From IMG/VR virus record IMGVR_UViG_3300047483_000045, positions 1 through 26,240 of that record: DNA of 26,240 nucleotides, one strand, 5' to 3'. The notes under the pieces are model-generated. The model worked only from the letters and a program-made list of their open reading frames with translations, made no database searches and was not told where the DNA came from. Every line of letters begins with the position of its first letter. The first letter of the stretch is position 1. The position numbers were made by a program, and so were the translations under genes. The stretch comes from a virus. Below are positions 150 through 26,240 of this stretch, piece after piece.

Positions 150-3100
150 TTATTTTAATTCTGGAGTTACTAATTCTCCTTGAGAAAGTTCAGGTACTTT
201 CAACATTCCGCTGGTATCAATACTTACTTTACCAGATTCTCCTAAACCTAAATTCCATTTACTATAACCCATAGCGAAAGCTATTCTCTGCCATGCTTCG
301 TATTCTGAATTTAAAGCGTTAGAAACATTCTGTGCTTTTACAAATATTCTATCCGCAGGTATGTTAGTTGCTGCTGATGTTACAGATGTTAAAGCTTCTA
401 TTGCATAAGTATTATCTAAGCTAAAACCTTTATAATTTATCTCATCTTTATTATACTCGTAAGCTTTGTAAGATTTTGATAAAGCTCTTGCTTTAATACC
501 TATTGCTGGCGCTACGTTCGCAAGTTCGAGAGCAACATCTCCAAATCCTTTTGGATCACCGCTTTTCTCGTACCATTTTATTATTACGTTTTTAACTGTA
601 GCTAATAATGCTCCTTGTAAACCAGAACCTCTAAGTAAGGTATCCATTGTACCAGTTAAAGCTCTCATTTTAGCAGAATCATATTTACCTTGAGTTTGCT
701 CATCATCATCGTCCCATAACGCTGCGAATAAAGCATTTTGCAAGAAGTTAAACATAATATTCTGTACTGCTGCATAGTAAACTATTTTAGCAATATTATT
801 TGGTACACTTCCTCTTCCTTTAACTAAATCTATTACAGATTTCTTTATAATTCTAGAGTACTGCAACGGAGTGTTTTGGAATGCTAATATCAATCTACCT
901 TTAACACTTGCTTGATTCATAGATATTTTAGAAACGTCTGCAGATTGTTGAGATATTTCCGATATTTCATAGAAATCACGCATAGTCAAATGCTTAGCTT
1001 CTTCTAGTGTTTCTCCTTTCTTAAGATAAGTGTTTATTCTGTTTCTATAAAAACCAGCACCACCAAAAGCAATAGCAAAACTATCTGCAATTCTAGTAGG
1101 TAAGAAACCTTGTTTAAGTATCCAATACAAACCTGATTTAAACTTATCTAAAACGTTCTTATTTCTAGGATCGTTCATTGCTTGAGCAAGTTCTGCTTCA
1201 GCAACGTCATTCATAAGTCCAGATCTTCTATCTTTTAGATAATCAGAGTTCCATATAGTACGGAAGTCTTCCATATATTGAGGTACGTTCAACAACGCTG
1301 CTCCAGCTTTAACCACGTTGTTATCACTAGTGTTTATGTAATTGACTGCTCCAATAGTTTGTAACACAGCAGATCGTATATTCATAAACATAGTAACGGC
1401 TGTTGAACCATTTAACCAGTTTAATAAAGAATCAGATGAACCATCTACTCTGTTACTACCAGTCTTCATTCTAGCAAGCATATCGTTTAAAGCTTTAACG
1501 TAATTTCTACCGTATACAGCTTCTATCTTACTCATATTCTGTTTAGAGAATATCTTTTCAACATTATGTGTCCAAGGTTCTAGATACTTAGTTCTGTTAG
1601 ATTTAGATATGATATTGTTAATATCACCAACTACACTACCAAATCCCCAGTTGTGACCAGGTTCTATATACCCATTTGCTTGTTTAGAAAGTAAAGATAC
1701 GTCTTCAGCGAATTTTCTAAGAGTAGGATTAGTTCTAACCTTTTCAACTAAGTTAAATACATCTTTCTTATCTAAACCTGGTATTTCGTATCCTGCTTTC
1801 TTCCATAAATAAACCCTAACAGCTTGATCATTCAAATAACCGCCGTAACCAGAGTCTTCTTTTAAAAGCTTACTTACTCCTTTGTATTTTTTATTAACAA
1901 GCTCTTTCCAGTCTTTGTACATCACTTGCCTAGCTCTCATTAAGTTAAGCATAGCATCACTATATGGTTTAAGTAAGTTGTCAACCAAGAAATCTAATTG
2001 TTCTTGACCTTGTTTACCTTTACCTGAAGCTAATGTATACATCAAACCTAAAAAGTCTTCATCTTCTGGAGGTAAGAATATATCATGTTTACCGATGTTT
2101 TTACCAAGATTCTTAGCTGTTTCTGGAGAGAAAGTTTCAGAAGCTTTAACTCCTTTGTTTTCTTCTATGATCTCGTTCATAGTTCTCTCTAGATTAGCAT
2201 TTCTCTCTGCAATCTCTTGGTATTTCTTAGATTTAAAATCTAAAGCATCTAAAACTTGTTTTGTCAATGGTCCAGTTGCGTTCTTCTTAACCATGAATTC
2301 AAAGTCATTATAACCTTCTGCTACTTTTTCTATAACGAAATAAGCAGTTGATTTATCTGACATCTTAGATCTACTAGGTACTTTAAAAGTAACCTTAGTA
2401 CCATCTGTAGTTTTAGAATTCTTTATAGCCGTATCAATATCTCTAGCAACAACCCATTGTTCTGTGAATGGTAATCCTTCTAAGAAATTAGATATATTAC
2501 CGTTTTCTTCTTCAGCTAAACTAAATTTAACAGAACTACTTTTACCTTTAGCCATATCGTTTAGAACTTGTGCCCTAACAACATCATCTTTAAGCTCGTT
2601 ATAAAGATTAACGTTTCTTTCGGCTACTCTTTCTAAGAAATCAGGTTGTCTAATTAATCTTCTAGCTTCTTGAAGAACCAAAACATCTCCAAACAACTCC
2701 ATTAAAGCTGTTCTTCTATCGAAATACGTAGTTGGTCTTAATGCTTTACCGTCTTTATCACTAACTTCAGCGTCTTCTAACTGACGTAATTCTTTGTCAG
2801 CGTTTTCTCCTCCATAAGTTCTTATTATACGAGATGCTTCTTCAACTCCATAGTAAGACTGTAAGAATTTAACCCTATCTATATCTTCTATTTTCTTAAA
2901 GTTTCCTTTATCATCTGTTTCTTTTAGTCTAGGAGGTAATTTCTTAGACGCATAACTAGATTGACCAGTAACAGGATCAGTTGGATGATTAATCACATCG
3001 TAAAGTAATTCCCACTGATTGTACATTAAAGATTCTATTTCAGGACCATTTTTAAAGGTCATTCTTCTAGCCATCGTTTTAGACAAAGTAGATAATTTCT

Positions 3101-6100
3101 CTTTGAAATTTCTATATTCTAAAGTTTGAATGTTAGGAGATCTTAATATTTCTCTTCCAACCTCGTCAGTAACGATTTTAGCTGGCGTATCTTGAATAGA
3201 AAGTGCTTCAAATGTGTTTACCATCATTCCAGTAGAAAGATCATAAGATTTGAAAGATTTTAATTCCTTTAACTCTTCTTTTTCCTCAAAAGTTATATCT
3301 TTTTTATTCTGAAGTTCTAAACCTCTTTCTAAATCTATCAACTGTCTCTTTAAGTCAGCTATTTTTACTGGATCAGTTTCTGTTTTTAACTTCTTGTTAG
3401 CAGCTACGGTTGGATCCGATGCTTCCGTAATAAAAAAACTACCAAAAGGAACCGTCTCAATGTCAATAGGTTTACCGTTTTCATCAACAAATTTATATAT
3501 TGGATCGTTAAGTAGTACGGCAAGTTTATTTTGCTCTGCTTCAAAGTCATTTTCTTCTTCAAAGATACTATCACCTTCGTCCATTAAATAACCTTCGTCA
3601 CCACCAAACCCATCAGATATGCTAGTTTCCTTAAACATCTCTCCTTCGATGTCTTCTGTAAACTTTTGAGTGGTAACAGATCCAGACTTAAGAGCTTGTT
3701 TCATTTTGTTGACTAACTGAGAGTTTATCCAAGCGTTAAGATCATCGTTTTCTTTTACGATACCTTTTTTACCTTGATAACCTTTTTCATCTTGAGTTTC
3801 TACCTTATCTTTAAACTCTTTACTTTTAGGATCCATTCCTTGTGAGACTAGTTCTTTTTTAAACTCTTCTCTTTTTTGTAAGAATTCTTTGTTAAAGTTT
3901 CTGATATGAGGTATAAGTGCTAATTGAGTTTCACTTATCATATCAAACTCACTAAAGTCTGGTAAGGCAGAATAACCTAAAGCTTTCGATTTACCTTTTA
4001 TTATATAATCATACTCACCAAGAATATCATACAATACATTGTCAATCGCTCTGTTCTCTCCTTTGTTATTGCTTCCTTCGCTCCAAGATTCTTTGTTATA
4101 TTTACTATTAACATCTTTCTTAATAGCGTCAGATGATTTTCTATCATCCATCAAAGAGAACTTTTTGTCAGTAACAGTAGACTTTTGTTCCGTAGAAGGT
4201 TTCTTAGAAGCAATACCTATTTCTTCTTTTAACGCTTCTCTATTTATTTTAGCTTTTTCGTTACCAAGTTTAGTTATAGCTTTGCCCCACTTACCACTCT
4301 CTACGCTTTTGTTGTAGTCTTTTATAAAGTTGTAAACATCTTTTCCAGTTTCAAACTCTATATCTTTTATACCAAGTCTTTGTAAAACCTGTCTTATTAC
4401 ATCTTTAAGTTTAGTAAATGTACCTTCGTCATACTTAACACTACCATTAGCTATCGCATCTGAATATAGTGTCAACGTTTCTTCCCATTGGTTACCTAAG
4501 TATCTATCTACGTTAGCGTTTCTTTCTTCTCTAGTGATTTCACCATCAGCCAATGCTTGATCTTGGTCTTGTATTAATTGTTTATATCTTCTTTGGTATA
4601 AACCCATTCTAGATATAAAAGAATCAGGCAAGACATCTTGTCCAGTCTCATTAGCATTCTCTTCTTTCTGAAGTTTAACTAATTCTTTATATAGAGATAC
4701 TCCAAGCAATTTCTGTGCTTCTGGATCATCCTTAACTGTCTCATGTAATATACCGTGTAAGAATTCATGTTGAACTATTTCACTAGCACCAAGTTTAAAA
4801 CCAACTGCTTCATTTACGAATATAGTTTTTTGACCTGGTTTTATTAGAGAAGGATCTTTAGCGTATTCTAAGTAACCTTCTTCGTCAAGTATAAAACCAC
4901 CTTGTTTTGCAGTCTGTCTAGCTTCGCTAAGTGGCATACCTATTTCTTTAACTAAGTATTTCTCTAATTCAGCAGTGCTAGAGAATGTTTTCATGTCAAG
5001 ATTTTTAACGACACCTTTTTTTATAGCGTTAGCTATAGATTTATTCTTAGTGTTTAATTGATCTTGAAAAACTATCTTCTTTATATTGCTTCTAGTTTCT
5101 TCTATCTCTTCATCTATCTGTTCATGAAAAGCTTTATCGACAGATTGTTTTTGGTTTTCTAACTTAGTAACAACATCTAACTCTCTCATCACAGGCATAG
5201 CCGCTTCTGAAGATACTGTTTTAGGTAATTTGTTTACGTTATTAGCGTATATATCTACGTCTTCTCTTAGTTTGTTTACTTCAGCTTCTGTAAATACACC
5301 TCTGTCTTTTAAACCACCTATTATTTTATCGAACTCTTGTTTGTTCTTAGCTAAAGTACTAAGCGATCTTAAATCATCTGTACTTTCGTTACCTGCTTTG
5401 AAACTAGGTAATTTAGCTTTAGATATTAAACCAGAAGATATAAATGATAATATCGATGTGTTCATGAAATCATCACCTGAAATAACATCATTCATGATCT
5501 TTTTACCAGCATCGTAGTTAGTCGTTTTATTAACACCAACTTCGCCAGCTTGTTGTATATTCTCTTGAACAACCTCTTTACCACCTTCTTCTGCGAACTC
5601 TAATAAGTTTCTAGGTGTATTTTTTATAATATCATCTATAGAAGCTACAAAACCTTTCTCTCCAGTTTTAGTGTATTGCTCTATAGCTTTCTTAATTATG
5701 TTCTTAGAACCAAATATATTCTCAGCAACATCTGTCTGTGGGTTGATAATACCAGTGGTACTATATAACACAGCCATTCTTTGACCTGCTGCCGCTGCTA
5801 ATTTAAAAGCTTCTTTATCTGATATTCCATTATCTCTCGCTGCTTTTAATGTTTCCTCATATCCTTGAGAATAACCTAAAGCACCTTGAGCAATCATAGA
5901 GTAACCTTCTGCTCTTTTGATAGGTACTTTTCTCAATAACTGAGAAGTATCATTCATAAGAGAAGTAAACTTACTAGCTTGTTTAGCTCCAGTTAAAGCT
6001 GCTCTAGTTTCTGTTGCTATCGCACCAAACTCTCCAACACCACGAGTTAACGCTGCTTGAAGAACCATGTCTGCTAATACGCCAGAAGTTTGAACTGCTG

Positions 6101-7508
6101 CTCCTTGAACACTGAACATCCAGTCGGAAGGACCAAATTGAGCAGATTGAACTATCTCATCGTGAGCTTTTTTATTAACCACATCAGTAACTCTAATCTT
6201 AGAATCTGCATCATAGATCTGTCCTTTTGAATCTACTATATAATTAGTCCCATTGTATTTAGTTGACTTACCAGATACGTAAGAAACACCTCTATCGTCG
6301 GGTCTAACAAGTTTATTCTCTTCATCTAACATTCTAATACCTTCTGCCGCGGTATCTAAACCAACAACATCAGCAGTTGCTGCGGTAAACTGTGCTGCTC
6401 TGTCTGCTATCGCATTCCAACCAGCTTTACCCATTTTACTAGGAGTTTCCCAAGAGAAAAAGTCTGAACCTCCTCTTTTAGATTCCTCGTATATTTTAGC
6501 GTTCTCTGCATCTCTATCCTTAAGTTTTTTAGTTAGGATAGGAAAGTTAGTCTCAACGTATTTAGCGATCCCATTTTGATCGAATAACTCATTTTGTTTT
6601 ATTTCTTTTTCTGTTCTAAAACCAGAAGCAATTTCAATATCTTGATTTAAGTCTTGCTTTGTAAAGTCTCTACGTTGCATGTCTTCCATATACATGTTTA
6701 ATAGTTTCTTCTTAGCGAGTTCTTTACCTAAACCAATATCATATCCTCCAAAGAAGTCTCTACCAGAACCATCAAACATACCTTTTTCTTGTTTATCCAA
6801 GAAATCGTTTTTGTAACCTTTCTTATTTAAAAAACCTTCAAAATCTTGAGTATTAATACCTAGACTTTCAAGTTCTTTTTTATTGTAATTACTTTCTATG
6901 AAGTTGTCTTCTTTTTCTTGATTAGCAGAAGAATAAAACAAATAAGGATGATCTAGATCAGAGTCTGTATTTCTGATTTGCTCTTGTGCTTTTAGTATTT
7001 TCATTTTACTATCTTCACCAAGCTCACCTGTGATAGGATTATCTCTGAAATTCTCAACGAAACCAGTCATCTCTTCATCAGACATGGCCAATTTACCTTT
7101 GATCTCTCTTTCAACCTTGCTTCCAGGTATTTTTATTTTACCAGTTTTAGCCTCGTAATTCTTTAACTTAGCTTCGTTTTGTTTTAAATTATATACACTC
7201 TGGTAATCATCCATATAATTACTTGGACGAGAAGAAGGAGGAGGTAAAATACCTCTCTTCTCCATCTCATCTACGTCATTAGTAGTAGGAAGTCTCCACT
7301 TTTTCGAATCCGAAGAACCATTTTCCCCATTCGAATCCGAATCTTGACTTAGTGCTTTTTTCTTCTTCGACGCTACGCCCGCACTCTTCGCAGCGCCCCA
7401 TTGCTTTTTTGCTCCGGGGTTCTTTAATAAAAAGTTAGTCTTTTCAAATTGATTCATAGTAGACATATCTACTTGAGAACCGTCAGGCAATGTATATAAT
7501 TCTTCCAT
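150..7508 (-). CDS. Giant multidomain virion (ejection) protein with HEXXH metallopeptidase motif, 2452 aa
   Basis: This is a huge, mostly hydrophilic protein at the end of the late module, in the position where podoviruses encode their largest internal/ejection protein (T7 gp16-like by order, not by sequence). Visible parts are a lysine/serine-rich N-terminal linker (about 35-72); alanine-rich, partly hydrophobic stretches about 470-600; a zinc-protease motif HEFLH at 914-918 preceded by TIFVNE-type sequence; two KFSL motifs after Ser/Thr/Lys-rich linkers (1116-1119 and 1661-1664); and a C-terminal block with hydrophobic helices about 2026-2056 and 2236-2268 flanking an NTPLQYSRI-type motif near 2212. 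Such C-termini are known from large polyvalent phage proteins. It likely enters the cell with the DNA; the protease could process virion or host proteins (inference). No DxDGD-type RNA polymerase motif was seen. The start lies 8 nt after the previous stop. Confidence 0.85.
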   Translation of the reverse strand: MEELYTLPDGSQVDMSTMNQFEKTNFLLKNPGAKKQWGAAKSAGVASKKKKALSQDSDSNGENGSSDSKKWRLPTTNDVDEMEKRGILPPPSSRPSNYMDDYQSVYNLKQNEAKLKNYEAKTGKIKIPGSKVEREIKGKLAMSDEEMTGFVENFRDNPITGELGEDSKMKILKAQEQIRNTDSDLDHPYLFYSSANQEKEDNFIESNYNKKELESLGINTQDFEGFLNKKGYKNDFLDKQEKGMFDGSGRDFFGGYDIGLGKELAKKKLLNMYMEDMQRRDFTKQDLNQDIEIASGFRTEKEIKQNELFDQNGIAKYVETNFPILTKKLKDRDAENAKIYEESKRGGSDFFSWETPSKMGKAGWNAIADRAAQFTAATADVVGLDTAAEGIRMLDEENKLVRPDDRGVSYVSGKSTKYNGTNYIVDSKGQIYDADSKIRVTDVVNKKAHDEIVQSAQFGPSDWMFSVQGAAVQTSGVLADMVLQAALTRGVGEFGAIATETRAALTGAKQASKFTSLMNDTSQLLRKVPIKRAEGYSMIAQGALGYSQGYEETLKAARDNGISDKEAFKLAAAAGQRMAVLYSTTGIINPQTDVAENIFGSKNIIKKAIEQYTKTGEKGFVASIDDIIKNTPRNLLEFAEEGGKEVVQENIQQAGEVGVNKTTNYDAGKKIMNDVISGDDFMNTSILSFISSGLISKAKLPSFKAGNESTDDLRSLSTLAKNKQEFDKIIGGLKDRGVFTEAEVNKLREDVDIYANNVNKLPKTVSSEAAMPVMRELDVVTKLENQKQSVDKAFHEQIDEEIEETRSNIKKIVFQDQLNTKNKSIANAIKKGVVKNLDMKTFSSTAELEKYLVKEIGMPLSEARQTAKQGGFILDEEGYLEYAKDPSLIKPGQKTIFVNEAVGFKLGASEIVQHEFLHGILHETVKDDPEAQKLLGVSLYKELVKLQKEENANETGQDVLPDSFISRMGLYQRRYKQLIQDQDQALADGEITREERNANVDRYLGNQWEETLTLYSDAIANGSVKYDEGTFTKLKDVIRQVLQRLGIKDIEFETGKDVYNFIKDYNKSVESGKWGKAITKLGNEKAKINREALKEEIGIASKKPSTEQKSTVTDKKFSLMDDRKSSDAIKKDVNSKYNKESWSEGSNNKGENRAIDNVLYDILGEYDYIIKGKSKALGYSALPDFSEFDMISETQLALIPHIRNFNKEFLQKREEFKKELVSQGMDPKSKEFKDKVETQDEKGYQGKKGIVKENDDLNAWINSQLVNKMKQALKSGSVTTQKFTEDIEGEMFKETSISDGFGGDEGYLMDEGDSIFEEENDFEAEQNKLAVLLNDPIYKFVDENGKPIDIETVPFGSFFITEASDPTVAANKKLKTETDPVKIADLKRQLIDLERGLELQNKKDITFEEKEELKELKSFKSYDLSTGMMVNTFEALSIQDTPAKIVTDEVGREILRSPNIQTLEYRNFKEKLSTLSKTMARRMTFKNGPEIESLMYNQWELLYDVINHPTDPVTGQSSYASKKLPPRLKETDDKGNFKKIEDIDRVKFLQSYYGVEEASRIIRTYGGENADKELRQLEDAEVSDKDGKALRPTTYFDRRTALMELFGDVLVLQEARRLIRQPDFLERVAERNVNLYNELKDDVVRAQVLNDMAKGKSSSVKFSLAEEENGNISNFLEGLPFTEQWVVARDIDTAIKNSKTTDGTKVTFKVPSRSKMSDKSTAYFVIEKVAEGYNDFEFMVKKNATGPLTKQVLDALDFKSKKYQEIAERNANLERTMNEIIEENKGVKASETFSPETAKNLGKNIGKHDIFLPPEDEDFLGLMYTLASGKGKQGQEQLDFLVDNLLKPYSDAMLNLMRARQVMYKDWKELVNKKYKGVSKLLKEDSGYGGYLNDQAVRVYLWKKAGYEIPGLDKKDVFNLVEKVRTNPTLRKFAEDVSLLSKQANGYIEPGHNWGFGSVVGDINNIISKSNRTKYLEPWTHNVEKIFSKQNMSKIEAVYGRNYVKALNDMLARMKTGSNRVDGSSDSLLNWLNGSTAVTMFMNIRSAVLQTIGAVNYINTSDNNVVKAGAALLNVPQYMEDFRTIWNSDYLKDRRSGLMNDVAEAELAQAMNDPRNKNVLDKFKSGLYWILKQGFLPTRIADSFAIAFGGAGFYRNRINTYLKKGETLEEAKHLTMRDFYEISEISQQSADVSKISMNQASVKGRLILAFQNTPLQYSRIIKKSVIDLVKGRGSVPNNIAKIVYYAAVQNIMFNFLQNALFAALWDDDDEQTQGKYDSAKMRALTGTMDTLLRGSGLQGALLATVKNVIIKWYEKSGDPKGFGDVALELANVAPAIGIKARALSKSYKAYEYNKDEINYKGFSLDNTYAIEALTSVTSAATNIPADRIFVKAQNVSNALNSEYEAWQRIAFAMGYSKWNLGLGESGKVSIDTSGMLKVPELSQGELVTPELK

Positions 7509-7516
7509 ATTTTATT

Positions 7517-9319
7517 TTATAAAGATTTCGATGCTCTATTAGCGTATGCTTGTTCAGACTCACCTGATTTTTTAGGATTAGCTCTTACCCAATCCATTAA
7601 CTTAGCTTCACCCAAAGTTTCTTGAAGTATTTTTCTTTCACCAGCATCAGACGTTTGATCCAACGCTAATTTAACTCTACCAACAGCGCTGTTAACATCG
7701 TAACCTTTTAAAGGTTTATATTGATTAGCTCCGTCTTCTACAAATAGAGATGCTTTTGGATACATTTTATCAAACGCTACTTTAGGATCTTTTCCTTTCT
7801 TCTTATACTCTTGTTCTATCGTATTTTCAGAAACGTATTTACCTTCTTTGTATGGTTGAGATATAAATCTAGCGTATAAATCTTCTCTAGTAACATACTT
7901 ATCTGTACTTCCAGATAATTTGTTTAAGTTTTCTGCTAGACTTTTTCTAGTTCTATATTTAACTTGTCCTTCCTGTAATTTCTCACCCTGTTTAGGAGTA
8001 TAACCAGAAATTATATCTCTATAATAATCTGTCTTATAAGTCGTAGGTTCTGGCTTATCAGATTTACCTCTACCTCCTATTCCTAATTCAGCATTACTAG
8101 GTTTGTCTTTTAGTTTAATGTCTGCAGTTGGGTTCCAGTATATAGTCTCTCCGTTCTTGGTTGTTGTTTTTTCCAGAGGTTTAACCATATCGTTAAAAGT
8201 CTTTTCTGTCAACATTTCTTTTAACATTTGCTTTTGTTCTTCTGGTGATCTAGCAACTCCGTTTTCATCAACCTTAAAGTTCTTATCGTAGAAACCAGGA
8301 CCTTTCTTTAAAGTGTAATCTAACATAGCTCTAAGTCTAGTAGGACTATCGGCTCCAATCATCCCAGATGCTGTAACTTCTGCTTTCTTTGCTATAGCTT
8401 TCTTAGCGGCGTCAACCTGAAGTCTTCTACCATTTGTTATTTGGTATATATCTCTACCGTTTCCACCAGAAGTACCAGAACTATCAAGATCGTATGTCTC
8501 TCTAGTTTCTGTTAAATAACCTTCGTATATATTACCTTTCTTATCTACGATGTCTTCTTTAGCTTGAGTATGAAAAGTATCTAAACTTTCAACTGGTACA
8601 AGTAAACCATTTTCGCCCTCAGTTTCAGACTTATCAAAGTTCTTAGAATATATTTTGAAATTAATATCTCTATTATCTTCTTTATGTTTTCCAGTAACGG
8701 TTAATATTAAACCATCACCATCTTCGTCTTTCTCAACATTTACTTTAGGATCTATATATCTAGCGTTCATACCACCAAGTATTTCAATACCTGCTGTGTT
8801 ATCTAGTATTTCCTCTGGACTTGATCCATTAACAAAATGTCCTCCAACTTCACCCACTTTTAAACCTTTGGTATTTAATCTCCAAGTAGCAGTTTGACCA
8901 GCTATTGACTTAGCGAAAGTAGCAGAGCTATCTAAAAGAACGTTAGCATTTCTAACAGTCTTTAGATATTCTTGTCTTTTAGCCGGATTTGTTTCGTTAA
9001 GCAACATTATTCTAGCGTCAGCTGCGTTCTTTATTTCGTTCTCCATTATAGAGTAAACCTGCTTATCAATACCATCATCGGTATGAGTTTGCTTAGTCTT
9101 CCAGTCGGCAAGTTTCTCGCTATAAAGTAAATCAGTTTCGTTCTTTCTATCCTGAAGCTTTTGAAGAGTAAGTTTGTTTTCTTTCTCTTCTTGACGCTTT
9201 CTTTCTCCTTTCTCTATAAGAGCTTTTGATATAGAACTAGCTGCGTCAGCTATAGAGGCAGAGACTATCTCGCTACCTCTATTAGGTTGTATTATAGGTG
9301 GATTTTCGTAATATCCCAT
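7517..9319 (-). CDS. Putative internal virion/ejection protein, 600 aa
   Basis: I do not recognise a domain. The protein is hydrophilic and lysine-rich, with a charged helical, probably coiled-coil segment at about 30-90 and no signal peptide or membrane helix. It lies between a 239-aa glycine/alanine-rich protein and the giant 2452-aa protein, which matches the middle member of the three-gene ejection cassette of podoviruses (T7 gp14-gp15-gp16 order). The role is therefore inferred from position and size, not from sequence. The start follows a 31-nt A/T-only gap after the 239-aa gene; the stop lies 8 nt before the giant gene, implying co-transcription and stoichiometric expression. A structural or cargo protein of another kind is possible. 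Confidence 0.7.
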   Translation of the reverse strand: MGYYENPPIIQPNRGSEIVSASIADAASSISKALIEKGERKRQEEKENKLTLQKLQDRKNETDLLYSEKLADWKTKQTHTDDGIDKQVYSIMENEIKNAADARIMLLNETNPAKRQEYLKTVRNANVLLDSSATFAKSIAGQTATWRLNTKGLKVGEVGGHFVNGSSPEEILDNTAGIEILGGMNARYIDPKVNVEKDEDGDGLILTVTGKHKEDNRDINFKIYSKNFDKSETEGENGLLVPVESLDTFHTQAKEDIVDKKGNIYEGYLTETRETYDLDSSGTSGGNGRDIYQITNGRRLQVDAAKKAIAKKAEVTASGMIGADSPTRLRAMLDYTLKKGPGFYDKNFKVDENGVARSPEEQKQMLKEMLTEKTFNDMVKPLEKTTTKNGETIYWNPTADIKLKDKPSNAELGIGGRGKSDKPEPTTYKTDYYRDIISGYTPKQGEKLQEGQVKYRTRKSLAENLNKLSGSTDKYVTREDLYARFISQPYKEGKYVSENTIEQEYKKKGKDPKVAFDKMYPKASLFVEDGANQYKPLKGYDVNSAVGRVKLALDQTSDAGERKILQETLGEAKLMDWVRANPKKSGESEQAYANRASKSL

Positions 9320-9350: not shown

Positions 9351-10070
9351 CTAACCAGCTGAAGCTAAACCACCAGCGATACTACCAACAGCGCTTATAC
9401 CAGCTCCTATAGCAGCTCCTTGAGCTTGTTTAGCAGCGGCTTGATTTGCACTTGCTTGAGCTTGTTGTCCAGATAGTCTATTTAATTTAGCTATATCTCT
9501 AGACTCTTGTTCTCCATATTTAAACTTGATAGCTTCAGTATCTGCCGCTTGCATTCTTTGAGCCTCACTGAATTTAACACCTTGTATTCTTTGTGCTTCT
9601 TCCATTTTAGCTTTCTGCATGTCTGCTTGACCTTGAGCTTTTAGTTTTTCATTAGCAGCTTCTTGTTGTTCGATACTAGCAGCAACGCCTTGTTTACTTT
9701 GTAACGCGGCTTGTGCTAATGCAGTTGCTCCACCGGCGCTTGCTCCAGTAGCTCTAATAGTGTCTAACGTATTTGCTAAAGATATATCGGCTTCTTCTGC
9801 TTGCATTTCTGCTGCTTTAGTTGAAACACCTAAATTAGCAAACGGATTATTAGCCATGTTACTTAAGTCTTCAGCTATTCCGCTTAGATCTTTTATGTTA
9901 GCATAAGGGTTTGGTATTTCTTGTCTATTTTGTTCTATAGTTGCTATTTCAGCTGCTTTTCTGTTCGCTTCGTTAGCGTATCCTTTAGCTGATTGTTTAG
10001 CTTGATTAGCTTGAACTAAGGAACCACCTACCGCTAAGGCTCCTCCTACTATTGCTGATGCTACTGCCAT
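9351..10070 (-). CDS. Putative internal virion protein with membrane-active ends (gp14-like position), 239 aa
   Basis: The N-terminal 20 residues are Ala/Gly/Val-rich and hydrophobic. The middle (about 100-205) is a long Ala/Gln/Glu-rich helix, probably coiled coil. The last 25 residues form a glycine-zipper-like hydrophobic stretch of alternating small residues. This layout is common in small phage ejection proteins that insert into or cross the envelope, such as the T7 gp14 class, and the gene is the first of three in the expected order. Only composition and position support this; I see no catalytic motif. The start is 1 nt after the stop of the acetyltransferase gene (TAATATG), so translation is probably coupled. 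It is the only gene here that ends in TAG; all others end in TAA. Confidence 0.75.
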   Translation of the reverse strand: MAVASAIVGGALAVGGSLVQANQAKQSAKGYANEANRKAAEIATIEQNRQEIPNPYANIKDLSGIAEDLSNMANNPFANLGVSTKAAEMQAEEADISLANTLDTIRATGASAGGATALAQAALQSKQGVAASIEQQEAANEKLKAQGQADMQKAKMEEAQRIQGVKFSEAQRMQAADTEAIKFKYGEQESRDIAKLNRLSGQQAQASANQAAAKQAQGAAIGAGISAVGSIAGGLASAG

Positions 10071-10479: not shown

Positions 10480-10497
10480 TTAATTTAATTTAATTTA
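10480..10497 (-). promoter_or_regulatory. Tandem ATTAA leader before the acetyltransferase gene
   Basis: The 15-nt gap between the 491-aa gene stop and the next ATG, together with the stop codon itself, is a run of about three and a half copies of the 5-nt unit ATTAA (plus-strand TTAAT). There is no purine-rich Shine-Dalgarno sequence. It fits the A/T-only start leaders seen throughout this module and probably acts in translation initiation, as in Bacteroidota, where SD pairing is weak. It could equally be drift in an AT-rich gap. Confidence 0.4.
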
Positions 10498-11970
10498 AAA
10501 CACTGAATAATCGTAGTTACAAGATGCTGCAAACAATTCTTTAGCACCACCAACATCAGTAGCGTTATCTAGAGACATGTCAACAACAGCGAAGTAACCT
10601 TTTATTCCTGATATTTCATTACCAAAAGATATTTCTTCTGGATTAGGCTCACTCTTATTCATAAGAACAGCCATGTATTTATTTTCTTTTCTATCAAAAC
10701 CTGCTCTGTTAATTGGAGGGTATAGTGTACTAGGATATGAATTACCATAATCATCATAAGCTCCAGTCATATAACTAAATATAGCTGGATCACCAACACC
10801 ATTCAATACTCCAACAATATCTTGAGTACTTATGTAACCAGGTCCTAATAAATCAGGTCCAGTCAAATCAGATCTAAACGAAGTAACTTGCCATCCATTA
10901 GCACCTTCGTAGTTTACAGTTTTAAAGATCTTAACATTGCTAGGAGCTTCGTTAAATACAAATCTAATTGCCGATGTGTATTGAACTCCATAAAAATTAC
11001 ATCTAGTATTAGCAGCGTTATTATAATGTTCCCAAAGCTTACCAGAATTTAACGTATAAAATTTATTCTTTAAACTAATCATTTGAGAAGGTTTAAACGA
11101 ATAAAAACTTGCCCAACCATTAGCTTCTTCAGTAAAACCTAAAGTGTTATATGATTGATCTGGATTAGTTGCTGATTTCTGCGTAGACAAAACATACTGT
11201 TTGTTATGAGTGTCCCATCCTCCTATAACTTTACCATTACCATAATATTGAGAATCTATGTTGTTAAATTCATCTCTAAAATAATCAGTCATACCATATT
11301 GCGATATTTCTGTTATACCATCTTGAGACAACCTTAATACAGCGTTTCTATATCTATCAGTAAAGTACTTTCTATAACCATAGACAGCGAAACTTCCAGG
11401 GTCTTGACTTATACCATATACACCAGCATAAGCTTGTGTCTGTCCAATTACAACATTTGAAGATGTTACTGTTCCAGCACCTTCGGCCGAATATATAGCG
11501 TCTTTATCTATTAATGCTCTACTAATCTTGTTTTCTTGAAATATAATTAAGTTGGTATCTTCTGCGTATAGTTTTTGAATAGAACCGTTAGCAGGATCTA
11601 AACCTTTAGTTATTTCTTCACCAACCGAAAACTGATTAGTATTATTAACTCCTGATTTTGAATTAAATATACCAGAATATATTAATGCACTTGATCTTAT
11701 CGCTGCTAAATTGTTAGTATCAACTAAATATGCTTTAACACCAAAGTCGACACTTAAATTGTTATAACCACCTCTTATTCTGGCTTCTTCAATAACCCAT
11801 TCTTTAGCGGGTTGCGCAGTTACACCAGCTATTGGCCAACCAACATTAACACCATCTATAGTAGTTGGAATACCAAACGAACCATCCCAAGTAGGAGTAT
11901 TAGCGTCTTCTTCAAATACTTTTTTAAGTAAAAAGGTATTAAAATATTTTATTTCTACTACTGCTGCCAT
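10495..11970 (-). CDS. Tail protein, second part of a split tail-tube/nozzle family, 491 aa
   Basis: The protein is beta-rich, with repeated short Tyr/Gly/Asn-rich strands. Its most recognisable block is at about 140-235, running from NLIIFQENKISRALIDKDAIY through YAGVYGISQDPGSFAVYGYR to LRLSQDGITEISQYGM. I know this block from the C-terminal half of long tail proteins in crAss-like and related environmental phages. Here it is a separate gene directly downstream of the 1054-aa protein, which carries the matching N-terminal half. The two probably assemble together in the tail tube or nozzle. The gene is preceded by an 82-nt gap containing a hairpin and followed by the acetyltransferase after 15 nt. 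The exact structural role (hub, nozzle or muzzle) cannot be read from the sequence. Confidence 0.75.
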   Translation of the reverse strand: MAAVVEIKYFNTFLLKKVFEEDANTPTWDGSFGIPTTIDGVNVGWPIAGVTAQPAKEWVIEEARIRGGYNNLSVDFGVKAYLVDTNNLAAIRSSALIYSGIFNSKSGVNNTNQFSVGEEITKGLDPANGSIQKLYAEDTNLIIFQENKISRALIDKDAIYSAEGAGTVTSSNVVIGQTQAYAGVYGISQDPGSFAVYGYRKYFTDRYRNAVLRLSQDGITEISQYGMTDYFRDEFNNIDSQYYGNGKVIGGWDTHNKQYVLSTQKSATNPDQSYNTLGFTEEANGWASFYSFKPSQMISLKNKFYTLNSGKLWEHYNNAANTRCNFYGVQYTSAIRFVFNEAPSNVKIFKTVNYEGANGWQVTSFRSDLTGPDLLGPGYISTQDIVGVLNGVGDPAIFSYMTGAYDDYGNSYPSTLYPPINRAGFDRKENKYMAVLMNKSEPNPEEISFGNEISGIKGYFAVVDMSLDNATDVGGAKELFAASCNYDYSVF

Positions 11971-12052: not shown

Positions 12053-15000
12053 TTATTGAGATGACTCTATTTTACCTAAACCTTGACCACTTATTCCTCC
12101 AGTACTAGGATGTACTTTTACATATAAACTGTAACCATAAGTTCCAGGAGGCAATGTAAATCCAGTAGATGTAACCGAAGTAAAACCAGACCCAATAGGA
12201 ATATTTGCATCTTTAAAATTACCGTCTACACTTATCGTGGTATCTATTTGTGAATCTCCAAATGACCTAACAGAAGCGGCTCTAAATGTAGCTGGCAAAC
12301 CAGTAACAGTAACAGTTCCTAAGTAGTTTCCTGTTCCTCCAGGTGGTACGTTAAATTGATACTGAGTTGGACCGTCGAAAACAACACTAACTCTATATGG
12401 GTAAGTAACAGTAACATTAGCAGTATCTGTAGCTCCACTAGCTTCTGTCATTGTAACAACCAAGTTAAATGTTCCTTCGGCAGTACCATCTAATTGCTGT
12501 AATAAACCACTAGATGTTATGGAGAATAAAGACGAACCAGCAACGGACCAAGCTAAGTTAGATGTACTGTTTCCGCCAGAAGGGTTAGACCCGTTTACAC
12601 CATCAAAATCATAAACATTAACAACACCTTCAGCTAAACTTATTGTGCTTGTAGGTTTGTTTGTTATAGTAGGTGATACATTTGATAACGCTCCTGTTCT
12701 TGTGTAATTCTTTGATATTATAGGATACCCAACGGTAGCATTAATAGTGAATGTATATGCCTCTGCGGTTGATGCGCTAAATCCATAATAGAAATATGCT
12801 CCAGGTGCCGTTTTTATACGGTACACACCAGGAGTGCTTGTTTGTTCTATAACAAATTTAGAAGTCACATTTGTACCAGTACCAGTTATTACGTTAGTTA
12901 TGGTAACAGTGTCTGGAATTACATCATCTCCTAGTATGTTATCAAAAGAAAATCCCGTTGATGTTATAGTTCCAGGAGCAGCTGCCTCTGATAAAGTAAA
13001 ATTCCATCCATTTAGATTACCTAAGCTTTCAGTAGAACCTTCTTCTATTGCTGTATTTAATTCAGTTATCAATCCAGCTGTAGATGTTTCCCAATATATA
13101 TCTAATTTTGACTCTACTGGTTTTGTTTCGTATACAGATAGATTTATAACATCGTTTGTACTAGTGATAACACCTAATTCAACAGGCGTTGAAATCCTTG
13201 CTATTATAGGATCTGAATTTATTTGATAAAAATTTTCAAAGCCAGCAGGAACTGTAGATGGCGAAATACCATCAGGGTAAAATAAAGAATTGCTAGTAGC
13301 TATCGTACTAACAAAAGCATATTCATTCCCAGGATAAAACTGCTCGTTATTATATGCTGAAGTATTATTGTTTACTCTAGGAAATAATATAACGCTACTT
13401 CTAAACTGTCTCTGCGCAGGGCCAACCTCACTCAAGTCTCTTGGTACTTTATTTATATTGTCGTTAAGTAAAACAATGTGAGAAGTTTTTCCTAATTCTA
13501 AAGTAGGACTATCAGGGTAAGCCGCCATTGTTCCAGGTAAGTACACATTGTAATAATCCTGTTCTGTTTGTTTAACTACTATCTTATAAGAATACCATCC
13601 TAGTGGATTGTAATTAACACTATTTATGTCTCCGTTATATATTCCAGGCCATCCAGTACTAGTGTTTGGTAGTGTTGGAGATATAGGTGAGTTAAATAAT
13701 ATTTTTAAAGAATTACCAGACCATTCAGAAGGTATAATATCACCACTTCCGTTATAAGGTAAATATAATGACGATGCTCCAAATTGACCTGGAAAATCTG
13801 TTGATATTTGATCCGAAAGAATAACACCTGATTGTCTACCAAATCTATCTGCTAGAACAACTCCAACTTGGTAGTTTCTATTCTCTTTAACAGAATGGTT
13901 AGGATATTCAACTTTGCTTGTACCTTTGTCAGATGTAAAACCAAAAGGTAATTTTGTACTGGCTCCAACGTTGTAGTTTAAATACTTTGGATACGAAAAT
14001 TTATCTTGGTAATTACCATAAACTATTCTATTACCAACTACCTCTTGACTCAGCGCTTTTACTGGAGTTGTATCATACACTCGAATAACGTCTCTACTTG
14101 GTAGAGTCTTAAATGGTTTTTTAGATTGATAGTCATAACTATAAACTACTGCCGATGTGTTCCAAACGTACCCACTTCCTTTTGAAGGATCAGGCAATGT
14201 TGGTATAGAATCTACAGCACTAACAGCAACGCTATCTGCTTCTTTGTATAATATTTCTATCTCAGATATTTCGTACAAAGAACTTATTAAGTTTGCAGGA
14301 CCTGGTAATAATATTTGTAAAAGTATATTATTAACTTTGTTTTGCATAAACCCAACTATAGTACTTCTGTAAGCGGCTGTTTCATCGTCAACAGCAGGTT
14401 CTGCTCCAACTGAAGGAGGAGGAGAATATAAAAAATAGCCATCTTGTTTTGGAATATAAGCTATTTGAGTAAACGGAGCCATTATAGAATACTCTCCGTC
14501 TTTAAACTTGTATCTATAACTAAACCTAACATATTTACTTTCTAAGTAAGCAGGATCACCAGCCCATCCAGCGTCGTAATACGGATTAGGAGTAGTTCCA
14601 TTTGGTAAATACTCACTGACAACGTCATACATTGTAGTTTCATATTGACCTGGTTCTAATACGCTTTCTCTGTATAATTCAGGTGAATATAAAGGACTAA
14701 GCTTGGCTACTGATATTTGTTCTTCGTTAATGTAATACGTTGAATTAGCAAAAGCCTTACTCACGTTTATACGTCTAGGTTGATTTCTATTATCTGTCCA
14801 GAACAATAGACTTTCTAGTAAGTTTATACCGTATATTGGGAATTGTGTTGAGAAGTTTAAGAAAGCGCCACTAACCAAAAGATTAGTAGCGTTTTGTTTG
14901 TTATTGTATACGTATATATAATTTTTAGCAGTTGGACTGTAGTCTGTACCACTATAGTTTGTTAAGAATATGTATATGTTATTATTTGATTCATCAGCAT

Positions 15001-15217
15001 ATACACCAATACATTCTAACCCGGTAGTATTAGCTAACGCGTTAAAGTTAACCGTTAAACTATTACCTAAAATATTTTGTAGTGTTCCAACGTCAGAAGC
15101 CTCTGATCTATTAACTTCTAGATTTAATGCATAGCGATATTCGTTATTAGGCATTAATCTATCGTCAATGTCTTGGTTCATTTTTGAACTAGTGAAATTA
15201 TTTTTAATTTCTGCCAT
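12053..15217 (-). CDS. Large tail protein with C-terminal Ig/cadherin-like domains, 1054 aa
   Basis: The N-terminus carries a hallmark block (SKMNQDIDDRLMPNNEYRYAL, then SDVGTLQNILGN) of a tail protein family found in crAss-like and other environmental phages. Further family blocks are GNRIVYGNY (about 390), KENRNYQVGVVLADRFGRQSG (about 440-460), VVKQTEQDYYNVYLPG (about 540-560) and LNDNINKVPRDLSEVGP (about 580-597). From about 690, after a KPVESKLDIYWETST block, the chain becomes Ser/Thr/Gly-rich and beta-like. A cadherin/Ig-like segment lies at about 845-945 and another beta domain at about 945-1054. The C-terminal domains probably project from the tail and could bind host glycans (inference). 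The propeller-like block expected further along in this family is instead in the next gene. It starts 4 nt after the upstream connector gene. Confidence 0.82.
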   Translation of the reverse strand: MAEIKNNFTSSKMNQDIDDRLMPNNEYRYALNLEVNRSEASDVGTLQNILGNSLTVNFNALANTTGLECIGVYADESNNNIYIFLTNYSGTDYSPTAKNYIYVYNNKQNATNLLVSGAFLNFSTQFPIYGINLLESLLFWTDNRNQPRRINVSKAFANSTYYINEEQISVAKLSPLYSPELYRESVLEPGQYETTMYDVVSEYLPNGTTPNPYYDAGWAGDPAYLESKYVRFSYRYKFKDGEYSIMAPFTQIAYIPKQDGYFLYSPPPSVGAEPAVDDETAAYRSTIVGFMQNKVNNILLQILLPGPANLISSLYEISEIEILYKEADSVAVSAVDSIPTLPDPSKGSGYVWNTSAVVYSYDYQSKKPFKTLPSRDVIRVYDTTPVKALSQEVVGNRIVYGNYQDKFSYPKYLNYNVGASTKLPFGFTSDKGTSKVEYPNHSVKENRNYQVGVVLADRFGRQSGVILSDQISTDFPGQFGASSLYLPYNGSGDIIPSEWSGNSLKILFNSPISPTLPNTSTGWPGIYNGDINSVNYNPLGWYSYKIVVKQTEQDYYNVYLPGTMAAYPDSPTLELGKTSHIVLLNDNINKVPRDLSEVGPAQRQFRSSVILFPRVNNNTSAYNNEQFYPGNEYAFVSTIATSNSLFYPDGISPSTVPAGFENFYQINSDPIIARISTPVELGVITSTNDVINLSVYETKPVESKLDIYWETSTAGLITELNTAIEEGSTESLGNLNGWNFTLSEAAAPGTITSTGFSFDNILGDDVIPDTVTITNVITGTGTNVTSKFVIEQTSTPGVYRIKTAPGAYFYYGFSASTAEAYTFTINATVGYPIISKNYTRTGALSNVSPTITNKPTSTISLAEGVVNVYDFDGVNGSNPSGGNSTSNLAWSVAGSSLFSITSSGLLQQLDGTAEGTFNLVVTMTEASGATDTANVTVTYPYRVSVVFDGPTQYQFNVPPGGTGNYLGTVTVTGLPATFRAASVRSFGDSQIDTTISVDGNFKDANIPIGSGFTSVTSTGFTLPPGTYGYSLYVKVHPSTGGISGQGLGKIESSQ

Positions 15218-25820: not shown

Positions 25821-26240
25821 TTATTTAATATAATATAATTTTTTTATAGTATTCTTATGGAGTCCTAAAGCTAAACCCGCTTTTCTTAAGGATGGATACT
25901 CAATATTATTAATTGTTACAGACATTCTATTCGCCTTACTTAAACAATTTTTTATCTTTGATTCTTCTGATACTTTTCTACCTGTTAAAGTTTCTTTTAT
26001 TTTAGATCTTCTTAAAAATTCTAAACTTTCATTTAGTGTACCAGTTCCTTCACCACCACAGGTCATATTACAAAGTGATCCGTTTTTAAGATCTATTCTG
26101 CCATATAACTTTATAAATTCCATTTCCTTTTCTATTGCTTGTTCTTTTGTTAAATTATCAAAAAGAATTTCTACAATATATTCGGTTTTATTAATTATAC
26201 TTTTCCAAAAATTAGATCTATCTTTTTTATTATATGGTCT
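25821..26240 (-). CDS. GIY-YIG homing endonuclease with NUMOD-type DNA-binding tail, 5' end outside the window
   Basis: Reading in frame from the window edge gives 139 residues. The first part (NFWKSIINKTEYIVEILFDN, TKEQAIEKEMEFIKLYGR, NGSLCNMTCGGEG) is the C-terminal half of a GIY-YIG nuclease domain, including the Glu-rich AIEKEMEFI helix that supplies the catalytic glutamate in this family. The GIY, YIG and Arg motifs would lie beyond the edge. A NUMOD3-like stretch follows (LTGRKVSEESKIKNCLSKA), then a NUMOD1-like helix-turn-helix stretch (YPSLRKAGLALGLHKNTIKK). Such enzymes cut near their insertion site and copy themselves into related phages. The apparent ATG at 26123 is internal. The stop lies 1 nt before the 91-aa gene. 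It may be free-standing or belong to an intron further right. Confidence 0.88.
   Translation of the reverse strand, partial: RPYNKKDRSNFWKSIINKTEYIVEILFDNLTKEQAIEKEMEFIKLYGRIDLKNGSLCNMTCGGEGTGTLNESLEFLRRSKIKETLTGRKVSEESKIKNCLSKANRMSVTINNIEYPSLRKAGLALGLHKNTIKKLYYIK
25827..25840 (-). promoter_or_regulatory. AT leader core, copy 3, inside the endonuclease 3' end
   Basis: The minus-strand core AATTATATTATATT, identical to the core of the two leaders at 18198 and 20901, lies 7 nt before the ATG of the 91-aa gene. Here it also codes for the last residues of the endonuclease (LYYI before the final Lys and stop), so the coding end of the mobile gene overlaps the leader of the packaging genes. Confidence 0.4.

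Follow-up and report, generated by a model that had tools for sequence, protein, structure and literature searches.

The locus analysed here raises the question of what a zinc-protease motif does inside a very large viral protein. The window, i.e., the whole stretch of 26,240 nucleotides that was analysed (positions 1 to 26,240 of virus record IMGVR_UViG_3300047483_000045), holds an open reading frame (ORF) of 2452 amino acids at 150-7508, which runs from ATG to stop and has full-length relatives on viral contigs. The first-pass annotation had described it, giving no strand, as a virion protein, likely injected, with a plausible gluzincin-type catalytic site that could act on host defence proteins, cell-envelope proteins or the virion's own large proteins. 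The ORF is real and lies on the minus strand, as do the segments of the protein described below.

Layout of the giant protein

The protein is composed of two conserved modules plus variable, exchangeable regions, as is the case for polyvalent proteins with their many distinct modules. The first conserved module is a zincin-type metallopeptidase core (residues 833-1030, 4419-5012), found in 79 of the 81 matching ORFs, whereas the variable N-terminal region (residues 1-832, 5013-7508) is, along most of its length, covered by only about 20-30 of them. A conserved flank follows the core (residues 1031-1085, 4254-4418), with the sequence YNFIKDYN at 1059-1066. The second conserved module is C-terminal (residues 1701-2426, 231-2408); its profile matches residues 1703-2426, with 45% mean column identity over 41 sequences, and it had no informative match in Pfam or PDB. 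Between both lies a variable middle module (residues 1120-1660, 2529-4151), matched by about 20 of the 81 ORFs, for which no Pfam family was found. Outside the protease and the C-terminal module, conservation drops among the 81 ORFs. No sequence relatives of the giant were found among 50,697 phage records, and nothing credible emerged from a PDB sequence search with the whole protein and the domain profiles.

Polyvalent proteins with an MPTase domain are likewise giant and multi-modular, with an HExxH helix followed by a Glu helix behind a three-strand core and variable inserts between them (PMC5512222, available excerpts). In contrast with them, the 2452-aa giant matched no named Pfam polyvalent domain. 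The virion RNA polymerase of phage N4 is also giant, injected and endowed with a zincin-type domain (PMC5512222, available excerpts), whereas no RNA polymerase signature was seen in the window's protein. An RNA polymerase reading of the giant was discarded, as its single DxDxD, at residue 182 in the N-terminal region, lends it no support.

Conservation of the zinc-protease site

The sequences TIFVNE, GASEIVQ and HEFLH (residues 914-918, 4755-4769) are present in the order previously indicated, and HEFLH is the sole HExxH of the 2452-aa protein, against 0.002 per protein in shuffles of the same sequence. A first scan for relatives, performed with a peptide adjoining the protease domain, fetched 80 loci with 79 ORFs holding the domain, and HExxH was present in all 79. 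Because this peptide adjoined the domain, the invariance of YNFIKDYN in that set is partly by construction, and the scan was therefore repeated with patterns restricted to the C-terminal module. This retrieved the best 80 of at least 523 relatives, 8 of which, judged by contig name, were already in the first set; 7 truncated ORFs were set aside. Among these best 80, HExxH was kept in 72 of the 73 complete ORFs, with a total of 0.5 expected by chance: 71 ORFs carried one copy, one carried two, and one had HExxxH instead. The domain profile failed to detect eight of the 73, although in these, too, HExxH was present N-terminal of the C-terminal module. In this second set, F1061 of the flank was kept in 63 of 73.

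A 73-row alignment was anchored on the motif; it includes the window's protein and leaves out the ORF with HExxxH. Glu1010 (4479-4481) was invariant in all 73 rows, whereas the neighbouring position 1009 varied (37 E, 18 D), the relatives again coming from the best 80 of at least 523. E1010 is thus a clear candidate for the third zinc ligand that the first-pass annotation proposed to look for after residue 918, and likely serves as such, judging from the alignment. The near-universal HExxH (72 of 73 against 0.5 expected) together with the invariance of E1010 indicates that the zinc-protease site is under selection. H914, H918 and E1010 would bind zinc, with E915 activating water. A structural zinc site devoid of catalysis is extremely improbable, since the catalytic base E915, which such a site does not need, is kept with both histidines in those 72 of 73 ORFs (best 80 of at least 523).

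The sole complete ORF of the 73 without HExxH, the giant ORF of locus L190, carries HEFIGH near residue 1160, followed by a helix candidate with the sequence YYEEV.

Predicted fold and family matches

Two alignments of the domain were built, one with 60 of the 79 domain ORFs, leaving out near-duplicates and two loci with no exact text anchor (L001 and L002), and another with 58 of those plus the window's protein. The AlphaFold2 model of residues 770-1121 (61 sequences) had a mean pLDDT of 89.7, with values of about 90 or more over most of the core. The predicted order of elements is a strand (837-842), a helix (845-856), two strands (871-874 and 894-899) and a helix (911-925, model residues 142-156) that carries HExxH, followed by two insert helices and a helix (993-1020, model residues 224-251) that carries E1010. 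His914, Glu915 and His918 therefore share one helix in the model, with the candidate third ligand on a later one. A zincin fold with an intact site is very probably present in residues 833-1030. Of the gluzincin-type assignment, the zincin-type domain with HExxH plus Glu stands, and Glu as third ligand is compatible with that class; membership in the subfamily is putative.

In Foldseek searches with the model of residues 770-1121, no zincin was found among solved structures. Among viral models, weak matches were obtained to a protein of an uncultured virus (E 0.026, probability 0.91) and to the elemoC_14-1A structural protein (probability 0.72, TMq 0.31). The VIA list of the window's model was filled by matches to its N-terminal helical hairpin, and therefore the core of a compact relative (L058) was folded (pLDDT 89.3). 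Its Foldseek matches were weak (best E 0.6). The top VIA row (1pwv, Z 6.7, 126 aligned residues, rmsd 4.3) is for the N-terminal part of anthrax lethal factor, a zincin-like but inactive domain. Next come 1oz9 (YbeY-like, Z 5.8), 6mdw (SPRTN, Z 4.8) and, in lower rows, MATCAP, selecase, jannalysin, BlaR1 and 3e11, whose title names a predicted zincin-like metalloprotease. Interleaved with these zincins were rows of glyoxalase type, spanning approximately residues 1-60. As all Z values are below 8, these matches support a zincin fold, short of proof.

Peptidase_M78 (PF06114) was weakly matched by 16 of 61 members (best E 1.7e-4), the window's member having no match. A profile comparison to M78 reached 86%, but motif-only shuffle controls gave 22-77% and a motif-masked copy fell below 1%. 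MPTase-PolyVal (PF18818) was not matched in a Pfam scan of the giant, and its profile similarity was about 5%. The sets used in both comparisons comprised only HExxH-bearing ORFs, and 6 of the 20 M78 candidates were taken out on visual inspection.

Gene neighbourhood and probable ejection

The other ORFs of the window form a structural block, with a terminase, a portal, a capsid-type protein and further virion proteins. One of them (10495-11970, minus strand) is a muzzle-type protein, matching PF25729 crAss_MUZ_C with 49.2 bits against a cut-off of 27, and it is followed by genes for proteins of 135, 239 and 600 aa and by that of the giant. The 239-aa protein (9351-10070, minus strand), first member of the cassette that ends with the giant, has hydrophobic ends (hydropathy peaks 1.93 and 1.49), and the second member, the 600-aa protein (7517-9319, minus strand), is recognised by gene position and by an ORF kept in relatives. 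Among 108 relatives of the giant with at least 3.2 kb upstream, an ORF of 380-750 aa lay directly upstream in 101, and 100 of the 108 also had an ORF of 150-420 aa upstream of that one; 69 of these 100 small proteins showed a hydropathy peak of at least 1.4.

In phage T7, gp14, gp15 and gp16 are encoded in this order, and gp16 carries a transglycosylase. The order in crAss001 is gp44 (the muzzle), gp45, gp46 and gp47, so that the 239-aa and 600-aa proteins are positional counterparts of gp45 and gp46, respectively. In crAss001, gp45, gp46 and gp47 were found in virions by mass spectrometry, their ejection was proposed, and this cargo block was likened to gp14-gp15-gp16 of T7 (PMC10172136, available excerpts). 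The 2341-aa gp47 occupies the same place as the window's giant, after the two smaller cargo genes, and carries an HEAFH at 2157; unlike HEFLH, this motif lies near the C terminus, and gp47 has no KFSL-type sites. Homology between both giants was considered and dropped, as no sequence similarity is detectable in either module; the positional analogy was kept.

Cultured phages with a related structural block infect Flavobacterium, Cellulophaga, Maribacter and Tenacibaculum. The giant at the same position is labelled 'structural protein' in Gundel_1, in elemoC and, based on its similarity to phi18:1, in phi38:1, but 'tRNA methyltransferase' in Panino and 'reticulocyte binding/rhoptry protein' in MW202828. 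The structural proteins elemoC_90 and Gundel1_74, from flavobacterial podoviruses, are encoded by the last giant gene of the same block and carry HEIFH at 1543 and HEFGH at 1337, respectively, but neither has a profile match to either module of the 2452-aa giant. No HExxH was found in phi38:1 gp101 and Panino_69, at the same position. The muzzle family PF25729 fits Crassvirales, whereas the nearest annotated relatives are classified under Pervagoviridae, Elemovirus, Pachyviridae or unclassified Caudoviricetes.

Taken by analogy, this gene order and the counterparts annotated as structural or detected by mass spectrometry make it probable that the giant is carried in the virion and ejected. Injection, as put forward in the first-pass annotation, agrees with the location of the gene, at a place occupied by ejected virion proteins; presence in the virion is suggested by gene order and positional counterparts. 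A zincin within an ejected virion protein is well supported, and it is a known theme, since zincins in giant phage proteins, as well as autoprocessing by them, were proposed in 2017 for polyvalent proteins (PMC5512222, available excerpts).

Ejection bears on two alternatives for the role of the protease. The main rival, which we consider rather unlikely, is an injected effector that, once delivered, would cleave host proteins of defence, envelope or regulation, with KFSL as a linker or docking motif. The likely ejected position of the gene agrees with it, as does the diversity of the domain sequence (28% mean column identity), expected for a protein in conflict, and host targets are among the possible roles of MPTase domains (PMC5512222, available excerpts). 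However, the sequence points to no host target, near-universal presence is less typical of an accessory effector, and the junction motif at module borders, described below, would be left without an explanation. The resemblance of the cassette to the T7 gp14-gp15-gp16 order would fit a role in envelope passage, in which the domain would open peptide cross-links or periplasmic proteins for the ejection channel, replacing the transglycosylase of T7 gp16. This is highly unlikely, given that zincins of such form are mostly protein-cutting and that family searches found no peptidoglycan-binding family.

Two further observations were made in the block. ORFs 10495-11970 and 12053-15217 match different parts of a single family of virion proteins, phrog_14478 (929-1217 and 1-180, respectively), as if the muzzle gene were split. 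At the end of the window (25821-26240), just upstream of the terminase region, an open-ended ORF matches homing endonuclease families (phrog_314).

A junction motif at module borders and proposed self-processing

The giant contains only two [KR][FY]S sites, both of them KFSL, and they coincide with the borders of the variable middle module. The first (residues 1116-1119, 4152-4163, codons AAG TTC TCT TTG) lies in a model tail with pLDDT below 50, as a cut site could, and the second (residues 1661-1664, 2517-2528, codons AAA TTT AGT TTA) is a candidate cut site and insertion point. Five relatives (L037, L004, L005, L006 and L014) carry inserted modules of approximately 175-816 aa, and the segments matching the window end or restart at 1690/1656, 1668/1659, 1666/1653, 1667/1659 and 1664/1683, respectively, around the second KFSL. 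The insert is flanked on both sides by KFSL or KYSL in L037, L004 and L006. L004, L005 and L006 share related inserts and those of L037 and L014 match no others, so that about three insertion events are represented.

Across 130 proteins, the broader motif [VI][KRQ][FY]S was observed 150 times against 37.9 expected, a ratio of 4.0 that ranked first among 24 letter orders (next 2.2). At least two copies were present in 43 of the 130 proteins and none in 53, though nearly all carry the protease. By region, the ratio was 0.6 in the N-terminal part, 1.7 in the protease, 4.9 in the linker, 24 at the C-module border (a region chosen after the positions were seen) and 0.2 within the C-module. When redundancy was strictly removed, leaving 20 proteins, the ratio was 2.8, with a runner-up letter order at 2.5, and the motif ranked second in linkers alone; the family-wide case is therefore moderate, and stronger evidence comes from the insertion pattern in close relatives. 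The serine codons of the window's two sites belong to different classes (TCT and AGT), and TCN and AGY are mixed in 23 of the 43 multi-copy proteins, so that not all KFSL copies are DNA duplicates. Duplication of DNA as their sole source was rejected for this difference between sites 1 and 2; AAA TTT AGT TTA nevertheless recurs in many of the copies at the C-module border, which may be duplicates.

In 129 relatives, the linker that joins protease and C-module is also enriched in FDF and DFD (FDF 137 against 15.3 expected), which may reflect a single conserved domain or a further short motif.

The recurrence of a short sequence at the module borders suggests, short of proving, that the protein cuts itself into pieces. 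As third member of the ejection cassette, the giant would exit the capsid via the tail, and its protease would cut flexible linkers at the two KFSL-type junctions (1116-1119 and 1661-1664), freeing the middle module or modules and the C-terminal module. This cleavage would take place while the virion matures or, with greater likelihood, once the protein has been delivered. If true, this would explain how a very large chain threads a narrow tail and then works as separate parts. Self-processing as the main role of the zincin is given a probability of about 0.45, and cleavage precisely at KFSL is a more tentative proposal. Among the three kinds of target suggested in the first-pass annotation, the evidence leans to the protein itself, through its KFSL junctions, over host defence or envelope proteins.

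Several observations argue against self-processing, among them the 53 of 130 relatives devoid of [VI][KRQ][FY]S and the lower ratio once redundancy is removed. No [VI][KRQ][FY]S is present in the zincin-bearing giants of Gundel_1, MW202828 and crAss001, and that of elemoC has one, at residue 568. In addition, the virion RNA polymerase of N4, which has a domain of this kind, is reported to enter the virion without processing (PMC5512222, available excerpts).

A maturation protease, which before packaging would trim its own chain or further proteins of the head or tail, was also weighed and appears distinctly unlikely. Apart from the giant, 4 ORFs of the window contain [KR][FY]S, but those sites are single or double and mostly without VKFSL context. 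Furthermore, prohead proteases are usually separate proteins, and the giant is probably present in few copies. In favour of maturation, DdrB of phage P1, which has such a domain, is processed before packaging (PMC5512222, available excerpts).

Returning to self-processing, a broader and doubtful extension of it would be a phage polyprotein whose exchangeable effector modules are set apart by a KFSL-type mark. The zincin of the polyprotein would cut at this mark, where modules would also be gained by insertion, the same principle operating with other cut sites in crassvirus gp47. The available excerpts of PMC5512222 describe no junction motif and mention neither a linker nor a processing site. 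In the open-access literature, no description was found of the junction motif, of a near-universal site in a family without assigned Pfam or PHROG, or of the crAss001 gp47 site. The presence of KFSL at either end of the variable middle module, with extra modules inserted at the motif in five relatives, may be new, and having a candidate cut site in fixed positions between modules opens the 2017 proposal of processing by zincins to direct testing.

Zincin-like motifs in other giants

The HEAFH of crAss001 gp47 (residues 2157-2161, L220:16588-16602) was also present in all 10 further crass-like loci examined (L222-L231), in open frames in nine and in a frame with in-frame stops in the tenth. It is followed by a conserved EE..AE.FR stretch. 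Judging from these motifs, gp47, annotated as an RNA polymerase subunit, is probably a second zincin-bearing giant cargo protein. Protease, peptidase or zincin are not mentioned in PMC7886860 and PMC6235969, nor protease or peptidase in the available excerpts of PMC10172136. A conserved zinc-protease motif in crAss001 gp47 would change the reading of a main cargo protein of abundant gut phages.

The gp47-type frame of L231 (cr4_1) has 12 in-frame stops in a 1135-codon stretch, in keeping with the reassigned stops of certain crass-like phages (PMC7886860). Finally, the same-position giant of MW202828 (3859 aa, L219:741-12320, minus strand) has HEFGH at both 1615 and 2500, and perhaps holds two zincin modules.
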